NCBI RefSeq assembly: GCF_000203815.1
Contig: NW_004457624.1
Span: 124,001-188,000, forward strand
DNA length: 64,000 nt
Reading direction: 5' to 3'
Source: Cavenderia fasciculata
Taxonomy: Eukaryota > Evosea > Eumycetozoa > Acytosteliales > Cavenderiaceae
Of this stretch, positions 6,069 to 19,903 are shown one piece after another. Below the pieces are notes generated by a model. That model searched no databases, was not told where the DNA came from, and saw only the letters and a list, made by a program, of their open reading frames with translations. The position numbers were made by a program, and so were the translations under genes. How positions within the stretch are numbered: the first letter of the stretch is position 1; each line of letters starts with the position of its first letter.

Positions 6069-9000
6069 TTATTTACTTTCTTGTTCATCTTCATCATATT
6101 CTTCAATTGTTGGTTCTTCTTCTTCAATATCAAATAATGATGATGATGATTTCATTGGTTGTGGAGAATTATCAAGTGATGGATTACCAGTGCTAGATGC
6201 CAAAGAAGGTCTTCTCCTAGAATTATTGATATTTGATTGATTTCTAGTAACATTTAATACATTGTCTTCCATAAAATCGCTTAAAGCTATTTCTTCTTGA
6301 TGTAGATTTGTCAGCTCCTTTGAAAACATTTGTTCTTCGATAAAGAGAGGTTTTTGAATTTGAATATCACGTTCCTCTAGTTCTTTGGCAAGAAATTCAT
6401 CAACGTCTTGATGTATACTATCGCCAACTTGAGAATGTTTACTATTGGTGGTTTGTGACATATTAGAAGTGGATCTGTTGAGTGAGATGGTATCTGGGTT
6501 GGTTAAATTTTGAGCATCTTGACTTCTCTTTAGATCATTTAATTGATCCAATAAATAATCTTGTGGACGTTCAACACTGTCTAGTAACGATGAATCACTA
6601 GTATTGTTATGAATACTATTATGGTGATGGTGTTCTTCAACACCAACACCTCTAAAGAATTCTTTTTTACCATAATTTAATATTCTTCTTCTACGACTAC
6701 CAGAACGATGTGCATGAGAACTATGTTTTTTCTTGCTATTGTGGTGATGTCTTGGTTGGTAATAAAAGTTGCTTGTAAAATTGACAGCTTCAATGAGAAA
6801 GGCAACCACCAAATTGATAATGCAAACCACCGATATAAAATAAAATGTACAAAAGTAAATGATTGCCCAATTGTTGGTGACATCTACCACTGCAAAAAAG
6901 GTGACAAACCAATTGTTTAAAACCGTTAAATGAAATAGTGTAAACATGGCTGAATTAAAACTATTAAAATTGGCAAATCCATAATAATTGCCCAAATCAT
7001 AGGCAGTTCCAATCAGTGCCGGGTTTCCACGTACCAAATCTCCATTAAAACACCAAATACCAATCACTGCATAAAAATAATATAAAACAAATATAATTCC
7101 TGCAAAATTTAAAAAAATAAATACCAATTGAAACATTGATTGAATAAAATGTCTCATTCTAAAAAATAAAATAAAAGAAATATAAATAAAATATTAATAT
7201 TAATATTTCTTTTGTAATATTAGATTGTTTCAATTTTTTTGTTTACCTTCTAACAGATGCAAACAATCTAAAAATTCTAATAAATCTAAAAGCACAAGCC
7301 AATCTTAACATTTCAATTTCATTACCAACTCCTCTTAGAGCATATTCAATCAAAATTTTACCAAATAATGATATTGATAAAATTACTATACTGAACCTAG
7401 GTTTAATTTAATTTAAATAAATAAAAAGGTTAATAAAAAAGGATTCATTAATTTTTTTAATTTTTTTTAAATATTTACATTAACCAAAACTTTCTTACTG
7501 AACGATAAGCAATTCCTTTTAATAAAACTTCTAAAAATCCAAGACCAATTAATATATCATCAACTATAATTGTCCAAGAAGGATTATAAAGGTTTCGAGT
7601 TGTAACCATGACATGTGTAATGATAAATGCATTGAAATAAAGTAATAGAGAAACCATAACCTCGAAACTCCAATGTTTTGTAATTTTTTTCATCCTTCCA
7701 CTTTTTAAATAAGTTATTATTTTGTCTATCAATGTAGGTTTCTCTTCTATATCTGTATCGTCGATTCGAGTTGAAGGAGTACTTGTAGTTGTTTGATCTA
7801 GTTGTTTTTTCTTTTTTATGAAATCTAAAACTTCATCATCTAGATGAGGATTTGGTGGAAGAGTAAAATGATGATCTTGATGAGACAACTTTGGAGAAGG
7901 ACAAGGTGTAATGACTTTGATGTGAATTTTGTTTGATGGGGAAGATGTAGAAGACGAAGGAGACGAAGAAGAGTTGTTGGGAGGAGAATAGGGAGATTTT
8001 AATGCACTTTTAATAGTACTACCATTACTATCAATCATCCTATTTGTATTATCAATATGATCACCACTACTAAATAAATTTCGATTATTTAACATTTTTG
8101 TTACACTTGAAGCTTCATGTTTTTTGAATCGATTAAATTCATCCATCTCTGTTGCCTCTTCTTCTTCTTGCTCTATATCCTCTTTTACATTAGCTTTTGG
8201 AGCATGTAAATGAGATGAAATTTTTGGAATCACTTTTAAATCTGGTAGTGATGATAGATCTGAACAGACTTGTGAATCTAGACGAGGAATTCTTGATAAA
8301 TCTTTGGCCAATGGTAATGCACTAGTACCATGATCTTTGATTGAATCTGATAGAGATGATGAACTAGTCCCAGTCTCTGATTCTATTCTTTCTTTAATGA
8401 TTTTTCTTTTTGTTAGGATTTGTACAGTCTTTCTTTGAAGTAGGAAAACATCACACATGGCAAAGAATTCACGAATGTTGAGATATCCATTTGCATCTGT
8501 ATCGACCACTTCAAATGCAGCTTCAGCTTCTTGTGAACTTGATTTTGGTTTTAGCAATTTATAGATATGTTCCCATTGATCCAAACCAATGACACCAGTC
8601 TTGTCATAATCGAGAATGATAAAGGCAGCTAAAAGAGCACTTCTTCTAGTCCGGAAATTATTTCTTGTTTCATTGAGCACAGCCTTTCGAAAAGACTGAT
8701 GCACAAATGCAATGACAAAGTTGAGACCTAGCAACCAACCAAACGACAAATAGGCAATGAAAAAGGCAGAGTACCACCGATTCTTGTAATAGGCCGGCAA
8801 CATGATATCGGGAAAGTTGCACGTTGTAATGAGAATCATCATGTCCAAGAATGATCGTGCCGTCGAGTTGAAATATTCGGGGTCGGTCGTCTCGTCGTTT
8901 GAAAAGATTATTGAAAACAATACACTCGATAGGAATATATAGGAAAAGAGAACGACGGCCACTGGTATCATTCTAATGAGTGTGTAGGATACTTGTAGGA

Positions 9001-9845
9001 AGAGATCTCGCGTCAGCCGATCGAAGTCTATGAGATAGTAGACTCTAAACACCCTTGACACTCTCACACTTTGTATTCCATTGGCTGCCAGAATGAATGC
9101 AACCAACAAATCGATGAGGTTTGTCAGAAGAAAAACAAACTTTACAATATTCCATTTGTTTCGAATGGCATTGGGTCCATAAAAGTAGTATTTGGCAAAC
9201 AACTCGAAAAAGAGAACCAATACCAACGCCAATTCAATGTAGAGAGTGATAAACTTGTTACTCGGTAGATCGTCACTTGGATACTCGAAATAGGCCAACA
9301 ATAGGTCACAAATCGTTACGACAAACAGTAGAGTTCTCGTTATCGGACTGAAATAGATACCGTAAAAGTACAAGTGTCTTAGATTGAGTACATGATTGGG
9401 ATTACGATAGTGGATGGCATCTTTGATGAGATAGTAGGCTATATAGTTTCTTCTAAACTTTTCCTCTTCTGTCAGGTCCTCTGGTTGAATCGGTTTGTTT
9501 TTAGAATACTCTGCATAGGCATAGTCACCACGTGGACTAATCGTTGCCTTTTGGTGAATAAAGTCTTCATCCATCTCTTCAAGTGGACGCTTATGATGGC
9601 CACTAATCTCATCACGAAACTTTACAATCTTTAATGTACGTCTATGTTGTGCCGGTTGTTTTACTTGTGGAGGTGGTAAAGGTGGTGGAGACGGTGCTGC
9701 AAATGGTGGAGTCATTGGTGAGATCTCTATCTTTTCTTCATCATTTATACTTTTTCTTCTATGATGATGATGGGGATTAAATATTCTTTCTAATGATCCT
9801 TTTGGTTTACGTCGATTATTTATATTATTATTATTACTATTATTA

Positions 9846-9879
<34 letters not shown>

Positions 9880-10313
9880 TGTTATTGTTAATTCTTGATT
9901 GATTTCTTTTAATTGGTGATTCTAATTTGAATACTGAAGAGAATTGACTTGTAACAGTAGGTTCATTGTGATCATATTCATTGTCTTCTTCTTCTTCCTC
10001 TTCTTCATCATTACTGCTACTTGATTCATCATCACCATCATCCTCTCCATCACTATTCCGATAAGATCTAATTGGTTCGATTGTATATCTATATTGTTGA
10101 TCTGGATCCAGATCCAATGTATGTTCTACGACATGATCTTCAATTACTCTATTGATATTATTGTTATTGTTGTTATTGTTATTATTATTATTGTTATTAC
10201 TATCAGTATTTGAATATCGTATTCTTTTCATCTAACTAATTTGAAGAGATAAGAATTATAGAAATTTGAAGAAAAAAAAAAAAAGATAATAATAGATTTA
10301 CTTGTTCACCCAT
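6069..10313 (-). CDS. Two-pore calcium channel (TPC) protein
   Basis: Four exons on the minus strand: 10313-10302, 10231-7479, 7396-7247, 7158-6069, about 1334 aa. The first exon encodes only MGEQ; its GTAAAT donor and the TTAG acceptor at 10233-10232 lead in frame to MKRIRYS. Alternatively translation could start at 10231. The protein has Asn- and Asp/Glu-rich N-terminal stretches, a first six-helix channel domain (about residues 297-515), two EF-hand-like loops between the domains (DYDKTGVIGLDQWE near 540, DTDANGYLNIREF near 580), then a second channel domain from about 850. The S4 helix of domain II lies in exon 3 with spaced arginines (FRFIRIFRLF). Two six-TM repeats with linker EF-hands is the plant-type TPC1 layout; such channels conduct cations across vacuolar or endolysosomal membranes. 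Ion selectivity cannot be read here. The stop of the neighbouring recombinase-like gene is only 65 bp upstream. Confidence 0.9.
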
Positions 10314-10683
10314 TTAATATAATATAAATATATTAGTATTTTGAATTAATTTAATAAGAAATTTATTTATTTTATTATTTAGTTGTCATCTTCATCATCG
10401 TCATCACCATCGTCATATCCATCATCATCACCATCATCATCATCATCATCACTATCATGGTCATGTTGTGATCTAGAATGACATTGTCTTACAGACAATG
10501 GATCAAGTGTAGGTTTGACCACTTTCTTCTTCTTTTTTCTAACACCAATTGAGTAGTGGAAATGGCATTTACTCTTGTGGCGTGCATATACTACAATGCC
10601 ATTGCCACATAATTTTCCGTTATCTTGCTTTGCTTTGCACTTATTTTTGTGCAAGTATTGCAATTGTCCGGATCGCAAGATAC
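10280..10683. repeat. Segmental duplication, copy A
   Basis: This block is nearly identical to 14795-15194. It covers the upstream edge and first exon of the TPC gene, the spacer, and the last 100 codons of the recombinase-like gene. From the Asp-repeat outwards (10469-10683) I see only two substitutions against the other copy; similarity ends abruptly after GATCGCAAGATACA. Confidence 0.9.
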
Positions 10684-11136
10684 ATTCATCTGATGGCAGA
10701 GACAAGTACCTATACTTTTTCTCGACACTGAATGGCTCAATCATATGAAGCACTTGGATGCTATAGAAAGAATAAAGAATTAATAATTAGTTGGTTGGTT
10801 GGTTGGTAATATATATATATATATATGTATAATATTATATATTTACTCGTTCACTAGTCTTCTGTCACTTCTCAATACAGTGCAATCCGAGTTGCTATTA
10901 ATAGTCTTGTCATGATACTCATACTCGACGCGATGAATAGCGTTTTCTAGAATCGAGGAACCATCTGGTAGGATGATGTCATTGAACTTTATACGATCAG
11001 CAAGCATTCTTATGATATCACCAGCAGGCTCACTTTGAGTCCATGAAGGCTTGGTTCCTTGGTTGTTTTGGAGAATTCCGGCCATTTCCTCAGTGACGGG
11101 TCCAATTGGATAGGGATAATCATTGATATTGATGTC

Positions 11137-11190
<54 letters not shown>

Positions 11191-14136
11191 GGTGGGGTTT
11201 GTGTTTTCGAGATACACTCTCTTGTTTTTGAGTTTTGAGAGTACCTGAGCTTCAGTATCTATAGACCACACATACTTTACGAAATAACGAAAGAGACGAG
11301 CACGTTTGGCACTTTCGAGGAATATATGGAGGTTTTTATCGGTAACGACTGTTGGGAACCAGAACAGTGGAGAGAACGTGTTGAATGTCTTCTCTTCCTC
11401 GATGAAACGATCGATTTTCTCTGGGTTGTCTCCGATAGAGGCCATCATATATTCGACGTAGCATTCGAATACAAGAGGATGTTCTATGAGGAACGAGACT
11501 GGATGGGGTTCCAACCCACAATGCACTCGCATCAAGTTGGTATCACGTAGTAAATGTGCCAACAATAGTTTTTTACTCGCGAGTAAGACTACCAGTTCAG
11601 CTGGAGGAAACAGTGTCACAATTGTGCATTTGGCTTCTTTGGCGCGATGGTGTACTCTTTCCAGTATTCTTTCATCTCGAATAGCACGATCAATGCCAGT
11701 TAATACTATCATAAATGGTTGTCCATTGAATAGGATTCTATATTTGTTGATAGCAGACATGATAATTATTTCTATATAGAGCAGGTGATAGGTAGGAAGG
11801 AAGAAAGGATTGTGTGAATGTTAGTTTAATTATTATCTATATATAGAATCCTTAAGATCAAGATATGTATATATTTTTAGGCTTACCATTTTCCTCTGTA
11901 CTATTTTCATCACCAACTTCTTCTTCTGTCAATGTGGTTACGAGTTGAGGAGCATCCATGTCCACTGGAAGCGTGCTATCGGTTGATGGGGTTGGATTTT
12001 CACCATACATTGCGGCCTCGATTTCCTCCTCGTTTTGGTAAACTGGATGGGCTGGCATGCTCTTGCACACATAAGAATGTCTAGCTCCGGAAAAGGTGAG
12101 TGATCCTAGAACTTGATCATTGATACTGCTGCCACAATTATTATTACTAGCTGATGTCCTAGAGAAGAGAACGACATTGGGAATGTCCCCATAGATGGCT
12201 TTGATCGATTGGCGCCAAGACAGGTACCTAAACACATTCTCGATCATGTGTTTGGTCACTTGGTATCTGATGCGATAGAGGCCATGGTCAGCAGACAAGA
12301 AGTAGAATGTGTCTGATATCTCTACGATTCCATTGACGACAGTATCATAATCAACCACTTGATACCTTGTCGATCCATCTGGTAGGTAGACAACTCGAAA
12401 TCGATATAGTACGATCCCTTTGCCAGGGTCTCTGTGTGAAGATGGCAGAGGTGGACTTTGATGCCCAATTGACAGAATCGAGCGATCATATCTTTGACCT
12501 CGGTCGGGTGTCTTGACAGCCTTTCCATGCTAATGAGGATCAGCAAGTCATTGGGACTCATGCCAGACAAGAGATGTAGCAACTGAATTCTCATACTCTC
12601 GGGGAACCAATAGGTGCTTACAATCTCGATGATCAGCCTTAATTCATAATCTGGGGTTGAATCGAGCAGAGGTTGGGAGGAGATGATCATTGGCAACCAG
12701 GTGGTCGTTGACAAGTATTGAGAGAGTTGCCAGAAGCTTGGTGAGTTGCTTCTCGAGACCAGCGGAAACGGTGCCTCCGTCATCTCCATGACTCTGCCTT
12801 GCAAACATCCATACTCTTTCAATGTCATGGTAGTCATACATTTTGAATATATTTTGGATGCCCTCCAACGACAACAGTGATGAATCATTCTCGGCGGCCA
12901 ATTTATCGACGATCTTTTTGGGGGTCGTTTCTTTTCCCCCTCGCGACGTTCCTGCTCTTTGATTTGTCTCACTCCTTCAAGAACTATATCATCCAACATT
13001 GCACCGTTTGGCATAACGTCTCGCCCAATATTGAATAATGATTTTTTTCCATTCTGGCTCATTACAGAGTCAACCCATTCTTGTATCTCCACATAGTATA
13101 CTCTTGTTCCATCTACCTTTTGGAATCGAGTATTCATGATATCTAATATGTGCGGGTAAGGAAGGAAGGAAGGAAGGAAGGAAGGAAGGAAGGAAGGAAG
13201 GAAGGAAGTAGGTTAGTGGTGTTTGAATTTATCGTATCATATCAGATATCTAAGAATATACATACTTCCAATATCTTTGATATCTTTTGAGAATGATATG
13301 ATATAACAACCCGTTTTACTAGCGATTGAGGCATCTCTCACATCATATATCGCATCAATAGAATCTTTATACTCGTTGATTATATTGCAGGGAATCGCCA
13401 GATAGTGAGGACCTGGTTGCTTTCTCGTGATGAATCACCACTATCCATATTATAGCCGCCATCTCTGTCTCGAGGATGAATTGAAGAATGACTCGTCGTT
13501 GTAGTGGTGGTGGACGAGGAAGACGAGGATATTGGTCCAGATACATTGGTGGCGGGTGGAGCTTGGGTAATGGATCTTTGTGTTGGGATCTTTGATTGTA
13601 CCCATTTGAGAAGTGGTGCATTTCTTTCCAAGCCTGGATCATTCTTGACTACAATTGAATATTTGATTGATCGATACCACATAAATATACCTTGAGCAGA
13701 ATCGAATAATTTGACCGGCTCTGGGGTACGAACAATTACGGTCTCATGGAACCATGATAATGATGAGAACCCTTTGTAGTATTGTTGGTATACCCATCTC
13801 TGTATAGGAATAATAATTAATTGGTTAGTACTAACTAAATTTTGTTAGTGCTACTATATAATATTTTAACTTACCCTTTCCTGTATTATTCTTTACATAT
13901 ATAAGATTTGGAAGTGGATCTATGGTATATCCCTGGAAGTGGTTGTGACTGACTACTTTCTCGAATACATAGCCATTGAATCTTTTGTCTTGTAGTAGAT
14001 CCATTACTGTATCATAATGGTATGTGGCTATTTCCTCTCTCTCATCTACACGAGAACTTTCCTCTCTTGCCGATCTCTTGAATGTGCTTCTGTATCTTGT
14101 AGCTAGTCTGTTGGTTATATCAACTATAGAAGACAT
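10379..14136 (-). CDS. Multi-module serine-recombinase (resolvase)-like protein, possibly decaying
   Basis: Proposed exons: 14136-13897, 13799 to 13602 or 13545, 13419-13266, 13142 to about 12366, about 12313 (or earlier) to 11887, 11771-10857, 10760-10379. Three related modules follow one another. Module 2 (about 12830-12440) has a strand with FARQSHG and then GLEKQLTKLL, matching the resolvase Y-A-R-V-S...Q start, and later NDLLILISMERLSRH followed by an amphipathic helix and GIKVHL, matching the resolvase D-x-L-x-V...DRLGRD...GV block. Module 3 has VVLFSRTSA and GSSINDQV, then after an intron MIVLTGIDRAIRDE. Module 1 is degenerate: VIVRTPE and IPCNIINEYKD replace the Ser and the Arg pair. 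Between modules are repeats around LPDGS/MPNGA. The C-terminus has a C-x9-C-x13-C-x2-H zinc-like motif, a KKKKK patch and an Asp tail. Two frame changes (near 12920 and 12700) and one near 12440 are not cleanly explained by introns, so it may be a pseudogene. Homology is inferred by eye. Confidence 0.55.
13159..13208. repeat. GGAA tetranucleotide repeat inside an intron
   Basis: About twelve GGAA units. On the minus strand this is a long CCTT pyrimidine tract directly before the TATTAG acceptor of the recombinase-like gene exon that starts at 13142, so it may act as the polypyrimidine tract of that intron. Confidence 0.85.
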
Positions 14137-14888
14137 AATTTATATATGGATATATAAGTTTAACTTTGTTGGTGTATGTATAGAACTTGTAGAATACATA
14201 CCAATTACCAAGTTGATAGGGGAAGAATTATTGTTGATAGGGCACCACTGTTGTTCTGGCACTTGATAGATGTTAGAGTCTACAAGGAATCACTGGCTGA
14301 ATAGAGTAGTATTAGACACTTGTCATTGTTGATTGACTTGTTGTTCGGGCTGATTAGAGTTGTATTAGACACTTGTCATTGTTGAATGAATAGAGTTATT
14401 GCAACCGCTTGCTGAATATCACCTTGTTGTTCGGGCTGTATTAGGCTTGTCATTGTTGAATGAATAGAGTTGTTGCAACCACTATCACCTTTTTGTTCGG
14501 GCTGTATTAGACAGTTGTAATTGTTCAATAGAGCTGTATTTGACACTTGTCATAGATCAGACTTGTATTCACTGGATGTCTCTGTTGCCTTTAATTAATA
14601 TTTTTTTTTTTGGTGAACTTTTTTATTGTAGTACAACAGGAACAGATAGAGTAATTTATTATCATAAATCTTATTATTATTATTATTTTAAGTCCAATTG
14701 GAATTTATAGAGATTTAATTTAATAATAATAAATTATGATAGATTTATTTTATATCTGCTAATTCGAAGAGAAGAGTTCCACTACAGAAAAAAAAAAGTT
14801 AATAATAGATTTACTTGTTTCCCCCATTTAATATAATATAAATATATTAGTATTTTGAATTAATTTAATAAGAAATTTATTTTATTAT
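14137..14888. other. Gene-free stretch between the two recombinase-like loci
   Basis: Holds the possible 5' end of the recombinase-like gene (a minus-strand GTATGT donor at 14201 and a TATAG acceptor at 14122 would splice a short upstream exon in frame), the degenerate repeat at 14281-14580, and from about 14795 the duplicated TPC first-exon region, here reading ATGGGGGAAACAAG instead of ATGGGTGAACAAG and not followed by a channel gene. Confidence 0.5.
14281..14580. repeat. Degenerate 60-85 bp tandem repeat
   Basis: Four imperfect units share the blocks GTATTAGACACTTGTCATTG, TGAATAGAGTTGTTGCAACC and a unit end TTGTTCGGGCTG (positions near 14340, 14430, 14495). All frames contain stops, so it is not coding as it stands. 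Confidence 0.75.
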
Positions 14889-15194
14889 TTAGTTGTCATC
14901 TTCATCATCGTCATATCCATCATCATCACCATCATCATTACCATCATCATCATCATCATCACTATCATGGTCATGTTGTGATCTAGAATGACATTGTCTT
15001 ACAGACAATGGATCAAGTGTAGGTTTGACCACCTTCTTCTTCTTTTTTCTAACGCCAATTGAGTAGTGGAAATGGCATTTACTCTTGTGGCGTGCATATA
15101 CTACAATGCCATTGCCACATAATTTTCCGTTATCTTGCTTTGCTTTGCACTTATTTTTGTGCAAGTATTGCAATTGTCCGGATCGCAAGATACA
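14795..15194. repeat. Segmental duplication, copy B
   Basis: Partner of 10280-10683 in the same orientation, about 4.5 kb away. It carries the 3' end of the recombinase-like gene plus what is the first exon and donor of the TPC gene in copy A. Confidence 0.9.
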
Positions 15195-15393
15195 GGCAAC
15201 ACCACAATAAGGAGTTTCTCCTTCCCACGACGCTTTATCAATATTGGATACCAGTTTTCCACATACTCGTCCATCTTGGTATGTGTATTGACAGTATACT
15301 GGTCCACATTTTCTTCCAGACTCTCTTTCTCTTTTCTACTTCAGTCTTGGTTGGTTGCTTTTTGGCGACTGGTCTGGTTGGTACAACTTTACG

Positions 15394-15456
<63 letters not shown>

Positions 15457-15801
15457 GTTGTTGTTGTCGTAGTTGTTGCCATCATCGTCATCATCATGCT
15501 ATCTGTTGATGGGGTTGGACCTTCACCATACATTGCGGCCTCGATTTCCTCCTCGTTTTGGTAAACTGGATGGGCTGGCTTGCTCTTGCACATTCTTATG
15601 TGTAGCTCCGGAAAAGGTAAGTGATCCTCGTAGAATCTGATCATTGATACTGCTGCCACAATCTAGCCGATGTCCTAGAGAATATACATTGGGGATGTAC
15701 CTGTCTTGGCGCCAATCAATGGAGTACTGAATCTTTTGTCTTGTAGTAGATTTAGTACTTGCCAATCTTTTTTGTTGTAGCACAGACAGATAGAGAGACA
15801 T
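14889..15801 (-). pseudogene. Partial, rearranged paralogue of the recombinase-like gene
   Basis: Minus-strand blocks occur in the same order as in the intact neighbour: a piece like 13978-14003 (around 15731-15756), then a resolvase-start block matching 11990-12200 (GSSINDQI, then PVYQNEEEIEAAMYG), then a long ATT repeat that would code Asn, then a Cys-rich segment and the duplicated C-terminus ending at 14889. Several frame changes separate the blocks (for example in the GA-rich run near 15325) and the resolvase core with DRxxR is missing. The Cys-rich part has a second C-x9-C motif (CQYTYQDGRVC) just before the shared CKAKQDNGKLC motif. There is no single open frame; unannotated introns could rescue parts of it, but a decayed copy is the simplest reading. 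It ends 90 bp from the RACK1 stop. Confidence 0.6.
15397..15457. repeat. ATT trinucleotide repeat
   Basis: About twenty ATT units inside the paralogous fragment; on the minus strand one frame would be poly-Asn, which is how such tracts normally appear in coding exons of this genome. Confidence 0.85.
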
Positions 15802-15891
15802 TATAATAATAAATCCAATTATTATTATTTTGTGAGTAATTTGTCGATTTAATTTAATAATAATAAATTAATTTGATTTTATTATAATAAA

Positions 15892-16869
15892 TTAACAGGT
15901 GATGTTGTAAACACGGATGATGTTATCAGTGTAACCGGCATAGAGGGTAGTACCATCTGGAGCCCAGGCGAGGGAGATACATGAAGCTGGCTTGGTCTCT
16001 CTCTTCTTGGCTTCTGGGTTGGCAGACTTCTTTGGAAGAACGATTTCGAGGAGGATGGACTTGGAGAGGAGATCCCAGATGAGGATCTTGTCATCAGTGG
16101 CAGCACACAACCAATACTTGTTTGGTGAGAAAGCGAGGGCATTGATGGTACCACGGGCATCCAACTTGTACAATGGTTGACCCTTTTGGAGTTCCCAGAG
16201 ACAAGCCATTTGGTCCTTGCCACCAGAGGCACACAATGAACCATCTGGGGAGATCGTGACGGTGTTAATGTAACCAGTGTGACCTTCGAGGGTGAACTTG
16301 CAGGTGTAGGTCTTCATGTCCCAAACCTTGACGTTCTTGTCCCAACCACCAGAGACGACGATTTGTTCGTTTGGTGAGTAACGGACGCAAGATACCCATT
16401 CAGTGTGGCTTTGGTTTTGCTTCTCAGACAAGTCGTACTTGAGCTCACCGATGGTGTTCCAGACGCAAATTCTCTTGTCACGGGAACCAGAGATAATTTG
16501 ACGGTGGTCAAATGAGAAACAGACAGACATGACATCCTTGGTGTGTCCTTGGAAACGACGGGTGGTGAGACCAGAGTTGATGTCCCAGAGACGGAGGGTA
16601 CCATCCCATGAACCAGAGAGGGCAAATTGACCGTCGTGTGAGATGACGACATCTTGGACAAAGTGAGAGTGACCGTGGAGTGAACGCAATGGGTAACCAT
16701 AGTTGTCTTGTTCACGAACCAACTTCCAGACCATGACGGTGTGATCACGGGATGATGAAAGGATGGTATCTGGGTGTTCAGATGAGACGGCAATGGCGGT
16801 GACTTGACCGTTGTGTCCCTTTAACTCACCACGGAGTGAGTACTTGGCAGCTGGTACTTGTTGTTCCAT
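15892..16869 (-). CDS. gpbB: RACK1, G-protein beta-subunit-like WD40 scaffold
   Basis: Uninterrupted frame of 325 aa. Seven WD40 blades are visible, each with GH near the start and W-D or similar at the end (for example [37 protein letters not shown]), giving a single seven-bladed propeller. Length and blade sequences match RACK1, which sits on the 40S ribosomal subunit near the mRNA exit and also binds kinase C and other signalling proteins. Codons are biased to C/G-ending forms compared with neighbours, as expected of an abundantly expressed ribosomal gene. The symbol is that used for the Dictyostelium orthologue. It shares a 470 bp divergent promoter with the BAR/RhoGAP gene. Confidence 0.95.
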
Positions 16870-17339
16870 TTTTCTCTCTAATTTGTTATGATATAAGATC
16901 TGTAAAGAAGAGGGTCAAAAAAAAATATGATGATAATCGAGCGCGTGTGGCAGAGCATACCAAAAAAAAAAAAAAAAAAAAAATTTGCAATCGAAAAAAA
17001 TTAATCAAAAATCGATTAAAATATTCACTCTCATTGATTTTCTGCCCGTCCCCTCATTTCTATTCTCAGACCTCATCGACCCAATTCATATAATTTAATT
17101 TTTTATAAAACCACAACATCTCCCAATAATATATATTTTAGATTAAGATTAGATATTGTATTGTATTTATAAACACACCACCGCGGCCACATATATTTAT
17201 TTGTATTATTATTATTATTATTATTATTATTTATAACAAGCAAGTTCAAAGTAGTTTAGTTTAGTTTGTCAGTTTAAGTGTATCATATTTATCATCAAAA
17301 TTTAAAAAGAAAAGAAAAGAAAAGAAGAAAGACTATAAA
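16870..17339. promoter_or_regulatory. Divergent promoter, RACK1 / BAR-RhoGAP
   Basis: 470 bp with A- and T-tracts near 16960-16985, a TAT/ATT repeat near 17200-17232 and an AAAAG run just before the plus-strand start. No distinct operator could be recognised. Confidence 0.5.
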
Positions 17340-19903
17340 ATGAAGTCATTAAGGAAAAAGAATACTCCTTTGGATGATATGTATAGTGTATGAAGGATTG
17401 ATTGATTGATTGATTGATTTAGTTGATTGATATTAATATATTGATTTCTAGAAAATAACAGAAAATGCAGATTTAATGGATGATTTACAAAAGAATTTAG
17501 AGAAACAACAACAACATTTCTTTACAACATCACTTCATTCAAAACTTATTGCTGAATCCCTCAAAAAATATTCAGATACTACTTCAACTTATAATACTAG
17601 AATCCCTCTAAGTATGTTAATCAAAATTGATATATATATAGATATCTGTATTAGTATTTGTATTGATCAAAAAATTTGTTTACTTTTTAATTTTTAATTT
17701 TAGGTGATTGTATGCAAAGAGCATCAGAATGGCAAGCAATTGTAGGTGATGTATTTAGTCATCTTGGAAATGTATTATATGATAGAACAACTCAACCATT
17801 AAAAGAAACGGTTAGAATTCAATTGGAAATGGCAAAGGATGGAAAAAAGAGAGTTAAAAAGGCTGGTGGAGAGACATCGACAGATTCTAAATCTTCTTTT
17901 TCATCTTCTTCATCGTCATCATCATCATCATTTTCATCTGGACGTCCAAATGAATTTAAAAAGGAACAAGAAAGTTTTGAAAAGGTTTCAAAAGAAACTT
18001 TACAACTATACAATGATTCTGAATTTGCATTGGAAAATTCAGCTGTACAAACAGTTCTCTCTGCCTATGAAGCATACTATGATTTCTTTCAAAAAGGTGC
18101 TTTTCAAATGGCAAGAATTAAAGCAGATATTGATAATTATAGAAAAATCATTCTTGAAACTGTAAATATTAAAAAAAAAAAAAAAGAAAAAGAAAAAGAA
18201 AAAAAAAGAATCCTGATGATTAATTAATTATCCTTTCCTTTTTTAGAATAAAGTAGCAGCTAAATTAAGAAATTATATCCCAAGAAAAACATTTGGAATT
18301 AAATTGGAGGAAGTGTTTGCAAGAGAGGCACATAGACCCATTCCAATGTTTTTAGAGGAGATATTTAAATATTTGGAAAAGGTGTCACCAACAGTCGAGG
18401 GTATATTTCGTGTTAGTGCTGGTAAATCTGCTATCGATGCTCTTCAACAAAAGATTGAAACAAATCAACCTTTGGAACTACAAAATATTCCAGACCCTCA
18501 TGCAGTTTCAAGTGTACTCAAATCATTCTTTCGTTCTCTACCCGAACCTCTCATTTATCATTCAAATTATCAAAAATATCTTTCTCTTTCAAGTATGTTA
18601 AAATTATTAATAATAATTAATATAAATATACATTTATTAATTTTTTTTTTAATTTATTTATTTTTTAGGTCAAGAACAAAATAAACATATTCCAGAATTG
18701 AAAAGATTGATTTCATCATTACCAGTTAGTAATCAAGTTGTATTAAGAAATGTATTGGCACTTTGTAGTTTAATCAAACAACACAAAGAGGTTACAAAGA
18801 TGGATTCAAACAATCTAGCAGTGGTGATTGGACCAAATATCATGGAGTCAATCCCTGGTTTAAAGGCAGAGGATATCCAAAAAGCAGAGACATTTGCCGA
18901 ATTTAATTCATTGTTTATTTTACTCATTGAAAACTACCAATTCATCTTTCCATCTCAAAGTGGTGTTGACTTTGCTAGAAATCGTTCTCAAACTGAACCA
19001 AATATCCTCCCCAACAACAACAACAACAACCTTTCAACTGGTGGTACTGGTCATAGTTCTCCTTCTTCTTCATCGGGTCCACATGTAAAAGAAAAGCCAT
19101 TACCTCCACCACCCATCCCTACACCCATCCCCACACCAGTCGTCACCACCGCTACCACCACCACCACCACCACGACTACAGTCTCTTCATCACCTTCATC
19201 TAAACTTCCAACACCTCAACCAAATGAATTATCTCTTTCCTCTATTTCTCTATCTGACCCCAACGACATTCAAGAAACAAAAGATTTGGATGGTGGTCCC
19301 CAAGAGAATAACAATAACAATAACAATAACAATAACAATAACAATAACAATAACAATAACAATATCAACAATGAACCGATCAAGGAACCATCAACACAAC
19401 CACCAACCTCACCTCCTCTTCCACCAACAGGGTCATTGTCACCTCTTGCATTTGACCAACAACGAAAAAAGAGTGTATCAATTGTAATGGAGAGAGGAGA
19501 CTTGCTCAAGCCTATTGACATGGAGATACATTTTATTACCATTCATTCAAGTCTTGAAAAGTTAAAAAACATTGTAGTGGAGAACAAGTCAACAGAATTT
19601 GGAATAGAACTCATTAAATCATTCAAAAAGATATCAGAGATTTCAGTTTCCATACAAAAGATTACAAAGTTTACCTTTAATCGAGACAAGCCAGTTGTTG
19701 CCGTCGAGGATGACAAGATCACCAAGGTTCAAAAGACACTCGTTTATACCTATGAAAATAATGTCGACCTCCTTTTAGATGCCAAGCGACTGTACGAATC
19801 GTCAGAGGATAACATTGAATTGTCAAAAGAAATTGAAGACGCCATTTCAACTATGGATAGGGTTTTGGTTGAAGAGCTCACTTCCCTTCAAAATAAACAT
19901 TAA
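17340..19903 (+). CDS. BAR-like / RhoGAP domain protein
   Basis: Five exons: 17340-17387, 17452-17611, 17704-18161, 18247-18592, 18669-19903, about 748 aa. The short first exon (MKSLRKKNTPLDDMYS) is joined in frame by GTATGA and TTTCTAG. Residues about 1-220 are helical and rich in charged heptads, with the pattern seen before RhoGAP domains in BAR-RhoGAPs (segments such as EWQAIVGDVFSHLGNVL and NKVAAKLRNYIP). The RhoGAP domain runs from about 232 to 430, with the arginine-finger motif EGIFRVSAG near 272 and NNLAVVIGPNI later. A Pro/Thr/Asn-rich linker follows, then a helical C-terminal segment of about 130 aa. Predicted role: membrane-curvature-linked inactivation of a Rho GTPase. The BAR assignment is weaker than the RhoGAP one. 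Confidence 0.85.

Follow-up and report, generated by a model that had tools for sequence, protein, structure and literature searches.

The window is a stretch of 64,000 nucleotides from the Cavenderia fasciculata genome (30,995,898 bases, 21 contigs), and the gene described here lies on its minus strand. It is flanked by an EF-hand ion channel gene (7475-10231) and by a WD40 gene resembling RACK1 (15892-16914). The channel gene encodes an Ion_trans domain together with EF-hands and is two-pore-channel-like by appearance. The gene of interest has four putative AT-rich GT...AG introns (13874-13800, 13265-13143, 11886-11772 and 10846-10761) that match the exon borders, and the donor of exon 1 is GTAAGT. 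Exon 1 (13875-14136, minus strand, as are all parts of the gene) was assigned from its open frame and from a paralog match at C21:137858-138136 (E 6.5e-13). It encodes an N-terminal conserved domain with a DPLPN motif common to the paralogs; neither this exon nor the N-terminal piece of the paralogous copy L024 matched anything in Pfam. A 42-nt unit is present four times directly upstream of the gene (14295-14563), the three further copies being 62-93% like the first, and intron 2 contains 12.8 perfect tandem copies of the tetranucleotide AAGG (13158-13208).

The remaining exons encode three successive modules, linkers and a Cys/His tail. Exon 2 (13266-13799) holds the start of module 1, and the first part of exon 3 (12871-13142) holds its end and a linker. 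Module 2 (12396-12870), a serine-recombinase catalytic core with a frame break inside, follows in the same exon with FARQS as the nucleophile strand, MRIQ carrying an R45-like Arg, and MERLSR corresponding to D67, R68 and R71 (numbering of gamma-delta resolvase). Between modules 2 and 3 is a linker domain that runs from YLPDGS onward (12179-12395) and is common to the copy L023 and to a copy in a fragment array on C4. The first half of module 3 (11887-12178) comprises the FSRTS nucleophile strand, SINDQ and an acidic loop that extends to intron 3, and the second half, in exon 4 (11480-11771), runs from TGIDRAIRDE to TIVTLFPP and past it. The remainder of exon 4 (10847-11479) contains a WFPTV region, a polyN stretch and an LPDGSSI region, and exon 5 (10379-10760) encodes the second half of the Cys/His tail and an acidic end. 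An earlier note on this DNA had quoted the peptides FARQSHG, NDLLILISMERLSRH, GIKVHL, LFSRTSA, SINDQ and TGIDRAIRDE, and all of them were found on the minus strand where it had placed them.

Exon-wise searches of the same genome detected relatives on C2, C3, C4, C12, C14, C17, C18, C20 and C21. When the window gene and a relic upstream of it are counted as one, the family has at least 15 loci: the window gene with its relic, C18:1803k (L020), C18:1035k (L023), C21:1728k (L021), C12:476k (L022), C12:490k, the fragment array at C4:634-649k, C17:100k, C2:945k, C20:105k, C3:1215k (L014), C4:922k (L206), and three known from match rows alone, C20:278k (C20:277897), C2:1163k (C2:1163393) and C14:1635k (C14:1635103). 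The least certain of these are C20:105k and C2:945k, whose matches are weak. L206 has an open frame of 834 aa (794 read) with modules 2 and 3 within one exon, and L014 has two long open exons; tandem cores, that is modules 2 and 3 together, are present in the window gene, L023 and L206. Among 12 pairs compared for dN/dS, three had saturated dS and eight others ranged from 0.13 to 1.14; the window gene and L020 gave 0.20 at a dS of 0.70 over 264 codons of exon 4, indicating old protein-level selection for that exon and not for every piece. Judged from these sequences, the family is dispersed and old, with protein-level selection on one exon pair. Outside this genome, searches of the viral_contigs set with the family profiles found no relatives, and tblastn of module 3 of the C12 copy against phages returned 8 records at E 3-10 only.

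Several family loci have particular surroundings. The array at C4:634-649k (L024 86-6630, L036/L067) consists of jumbled family fragments in both orientations, partly 81-98% alike, and looks like a local duplication hot spot. Immediately after the C12 family copy there is an open frame (L022 3909-5510) that is F-box/LRR-like by appearance only. L023 is flanked by genes for tRNA-Gln (L023 1342-1415) and tRNA-Asn (L023 6112-6187). Targeting of tRNA genes was considered for the family and rejected: among the 8 loci scanned, tRNA genes were near L023 only, and the window had none.

Just upstream of the window gene, and head to tail with it, is a shortened duplicate on the minus strand (14819-15759) with a complete Cys/His tail at 14889-15335. 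The duplicate shares repeat blocks with the gene at 95% (10348-10647/14858-15157) and 96% (11974-12069/15497-15592) identity, with shorter blocks at 85-92%; apart from a single block at 85%, identities fall within 91-96%. The earlier note had described one spliced gene; the four introns do fit that description, but the gene is not intact. Judged against the paralogs, its reading frame changes three times in exon 3 (13142-11887) and once in exon 2, near 13383-13434. In addition, a domain that precedes module 1 in L022, L024, C12:490k and the C17 copy is missing from the window copy, and of the zinc motif in its tail only the second half is left; the upstream relic has preserved the first half. 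The broken frames, the missing domain, the half-lost zinc motif and a duplicate with the full tail together indicate that the window gene is a decayed copy, one that by its sequence can hardly make an intact protein.

A profile search without a resolvase match was one of the outcomes that the earlier note had named as refuting its proposal, and this outcome did not occur: PF00239 came out on top in window module 2, in L022 module 3 and in L206, in every case below the curated cut-off of 23.3 bits (17.1, 20.8 and 20.6 bits, respectively, L022 module 3 being the best). For window module 2, PF00239 was the best Pfam match with an E of 0.019 for the exon and 0.006 when read through the frame break; for L206 the E was 5e-4. 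The PHROGs entry phrog_125, "DNA invertase", matched window module 2 at E 0.0012. PHROGs gave no recombinase match for four of the five module sequences or for the two L014 exons, NCBIfam gave none for any of the five module sequences, and sequence searches of the PDB matched no serine recombinase. The six-frame search of the whole genome with PF00239 returned no match at E <= 0.1 and no first-look candidate. Because the Pfam scores stayed under the cut-off and the Pfam search found no resolvase match in L023 module 2 or the L014 exons, we built a dedicated resolvase profile from 37 viral-contig sequences, hand-picked from 72 loci with near-identical loci left out. Large serine integrases were not used for comparison, as the sequences obtained were nearly identical among themselves.

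When the corresponding HMM was used to rank 933 six-frame segments of at least 50 aa (154,512 bases; the window and 22 loci), the top three were the module 2 exons of the window (E 2e-6), L014 (E 2.5e-4) and L206 (E 3.3e-4), and the fourth segment had an E of 0.51. Since the ranked loci came from family searches, this result tests the module and not its genome-wide rank. The match begins at the R45-like Arg and spans profile positions 39-106. In a profile-profile comparison with hhalign, the first module 2 profile matched the resolvases with a probability of 86.6% and an E of 4.5e-6 over 92 columns, and the alignment paired RxS with RxS, Gln with Gln, Arg with R45, and E-R-x-x-R with D67-R68-x-x-R71. 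The real score of 39.7 was reached by none of 150 column shuffles (best 24.5), and reversing the profile gave 14.7. After L014 and L206 had been included, the probability was 95.0% and the E 3.8e-8 over 62 columns that start at the R45-like Arg, and 0/200 shuffles were as good (best 19.8 vs 52.0).

The catalytic residues agree with these scores across the family. RxS is present in all five copies having that part of module 2 (window, L023, L024, L014 and L206), the RxS of L206 having been read by eye because the enlarged alignment places it outside the RxS columns. R-x-Q and ER-x-(S/T)-R are present in 4/4 copies having both halves, and in the hhalign alignment the Arg of R-x-Q sits in the resolvase R45 column. 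Two rows, L108 (a stop in the match) and L087 (stops), were left out of the counts. By sequence comparison, module 2 is homologous to the resolvase/invertase type of serine-recombinase catalytic core, and it has retained both the serine and the counterparts of arginines R8, R45, R68 and R71. The module 2 alignments stop at position 94-105 of the 153 in the profile; neither a long helix E nor a DNA-binding domain was seen beyond the core, and no helix-turn-helix family was matched in the Pfam searches.

Module 3 is also probably homologous to the serine-recombinase core. Module 3 of the C12 copy (L022), with its exons joined, matched PF00239 at E 4.3e-4 over profile positions 2-100. A profile of six module 3 sequences scored 29.2 against the resolvases with a probability of 35%, and the maximum among the shuffles was 17.3 (0/199 reached the real score); in two earlier profile tests, the second with the short C4 row left out, 0/150 shuffles reached the respective score each time. 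As single sequences, all six aligned in the expected register, each being weak alone (probability 1.2-5.1%). The window and L023 copies of module 3 gave no resolvase match in Pfam, lone module 3 exons were noise in the HMM test (L022 E 2.9, L023 E 5.3), and modules 2 and 3 matched each other weakly (probability 20.6%, and 1.8% in later profiles). RxS is found in four of the six copies (window, L023, L022 and the C4 copy), with RTT in L206 and, read by eye, FSNHS, which lacks the Arg, in L014. R-x-x-R is present in 5/6, being lost in L206, and in L022 S replaces D. Conservation of an Arg equivalent to R45 was not seen across the module 3 profile.

The serial recombinase-like modules that the earlier note saw in an intron-containing gene are thus borne out strongly for module 2 and moderately for module 3, but not for module 1. 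Module 1, which it had read as a resolvase relic, is conserved within the family, and as a third core it was rejected: hhalign scored it at 11.3 (E 0.4) against the resolvases and at 12.7 and 14.1 against modules 2 and 3. The interleaved LPDGS-type repeats proposed at the same time did not hold up either; no clear repeat was found, and the equivalents in L023, identified by eye, are LPNITEL, LNDSGMV and RPDGEFL, so the motif is not conserved as such.

Seven Cys of the tail are invariant in all six aligned copies, and the five copies that extend as far as the His position also have that His. The relic sequence used in this alignment has errors among its six leading letters, which touch none of the conserved columns. 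In the upstream relic the tail matched the primase-type zinc finger PF09329 at E 2.6e-5, with 24.4 bits against a cut-off of 28.8. The Cys/His spacing of PF09329 is like that of the second half of the family tail, whereas the family tail has a second Cys set before this PF09329-like part, and PF09329 was matched in two of the six copies. A further zinc-finger pair is present in L023 (zf-WRNIP1_ubi, 3e-4, below the cut-off).

From these features we consider it quite likely that the gene in the window is a decayed copy from a dictyostelid family with tandem serine-recombinase-type cores, an N-terminal domain and zinc fingers. Serine recombinases act as tetramers of four protomers; each catalytic serine attacks DNA and remains linked to the 5' phosphate, and rotation is followed by rejoining. 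A family protein would bind DNA via its zinc fingers, and attack by the serine would cut the DNA and leave a 5'-phosphoserine link, as in resolvases. The two cores of one chain may act as a pre-joined pair of protomers, which suggests that two chains could supply the four protomers of the tetramer. Module 2 would be the main catalytic core, because two divergent open copies lose parts of the module 3 motif and not those of module 2; in these copies, L206 and L014, module 2 is likely to be the active one. Serine-recombinase-type cores are otherwise found mostly in bacteria and bacterial mobile DNA, and the family probably originated by capture of a prokaryote-type enzyme that was then used as a transposase or domesticated as a DNA-rearranging or DNA-binding protein. 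That dictyostelids have a eukaryote-specific class combining two catalytic protomers in a single spliced zinc-finger protein, and that the open copies L206, L014 and L022 still recombine DNA, as an unrecognised type of transposase or a programmed rearrangement enzyme, is a further proposal that we regard as rather unlikely.

Two other accounts can be given little weight. One is that the frame breaks of the window gene are assembly errors and that an intact gene is expressed there. In its favour, long stretches of exon 3 are open in two frames, but the losses of the domain before module 1 and of half the zinc motif are deletions and not single-base errors, and L023 also has frame damage, so that we find this account improbable. 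The other is that an unrelated alpha/beta domain resembles the resolvases by chance or convergence. Every curated cut-off was missed and module 3 is weak alone; against this, no shuffle reached the real score for module 2 (0/150 and 0/200) or module 3 (0/150 twice and 0/199), and three members and two modules match one and the same Pfam family. A fortuitous or convergent likeness is very improbable.

The recombinase cores may have become a dimerising scaffold in a domesticated, non-catalytic DNA-binding family in which the zinc fingers do the work, a possibility we entertain with some reserve. The loss of module 3 motifs in L206 and L014 fits such a role, and serine-less copies also occur among the serine recombinases acquired by the yeast S. 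kluyveri (PMC2715888); however, RxS, R-x-Q and ERx(S/T)R are all intact in module 2 of the 4/4 copies having both halves, and a scaffold would not need them. We hold just as tentatively the possibility that the family is a decayed serine transposase, a eukaryotic DNA transposon without terminal repeats that now consists mostly of fragments. Copies lie across nine contigs, several of them broken or shortened, and the C4 array is jumbled. Among the 25 longest of the 46 inverted pairs in 10200-14300, none joins both ends of the gene, and one AT-rich 25-nt pair was seen in 9000-18000. This would be consistent with a transposon of that kind; IS607-family elements are described as having no terminal inverted repeats or target duplications (PMC6188088). 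On the other hand, the copies at different loci are old, as the dS between the window gene and L020 indicates, and the recent duplications seen are local. A decayed member of a family with tandem serine-recombinase-type cores remains our preferred description of the gene.

In its core the family resembles the Tn3/gamma-delta resolvases (PF00239), and the RxS nucleophile, the Gln, the R45-like Arg and (D/E)R-x-x-R match in both order and register, with E instead of D67 in module 2. Unlike those resolvases, it has two cores per chain encoded by a spliced eukaryotic gene, and zinc fingers instead of a long helix and helix-turn-helix, which were not seen after the core. To our knowledge, eukaryotic serine recombinases are otherwise known only as single-core IS607-type enzymes. 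We found no such dictyostelid protein in the literature searched, in which subscription papers are mostly not included. If the reading is correct, the two-core family would be a natural fused-protomer recombinase and could help in understanding strand exchange and in engineering it. According to a review, Dictyostelium discoideum has DNA transposases unlike any that are known (PMC5633606), so that a serine-type enzyme in a relative would be a testable lead. The closest parallel is in Saccharomyces kluyveri, for which six acquired copies of IS607-family TnpA are described (PMC2715888); like the present family, these are eukaryotic nuclear genes of prokaryote type that are duplicated and in some copies serine-less. 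The dN/dS values are low in both cases, 0.19 on average for S. kluyveri TnpA (PMC2715888) and 0.20 for one exon pair of the family. IS607-type elements are likewise described from Acanthamoeba and giant viruses (PMC3627910). IS607 TnpA consists of an N-terminal DNA-binding domain and one catalytic domain (PMC2715888), whereas the present family, with its 15 or more divergent loci, has tandem modules, introns and a zinc tail.
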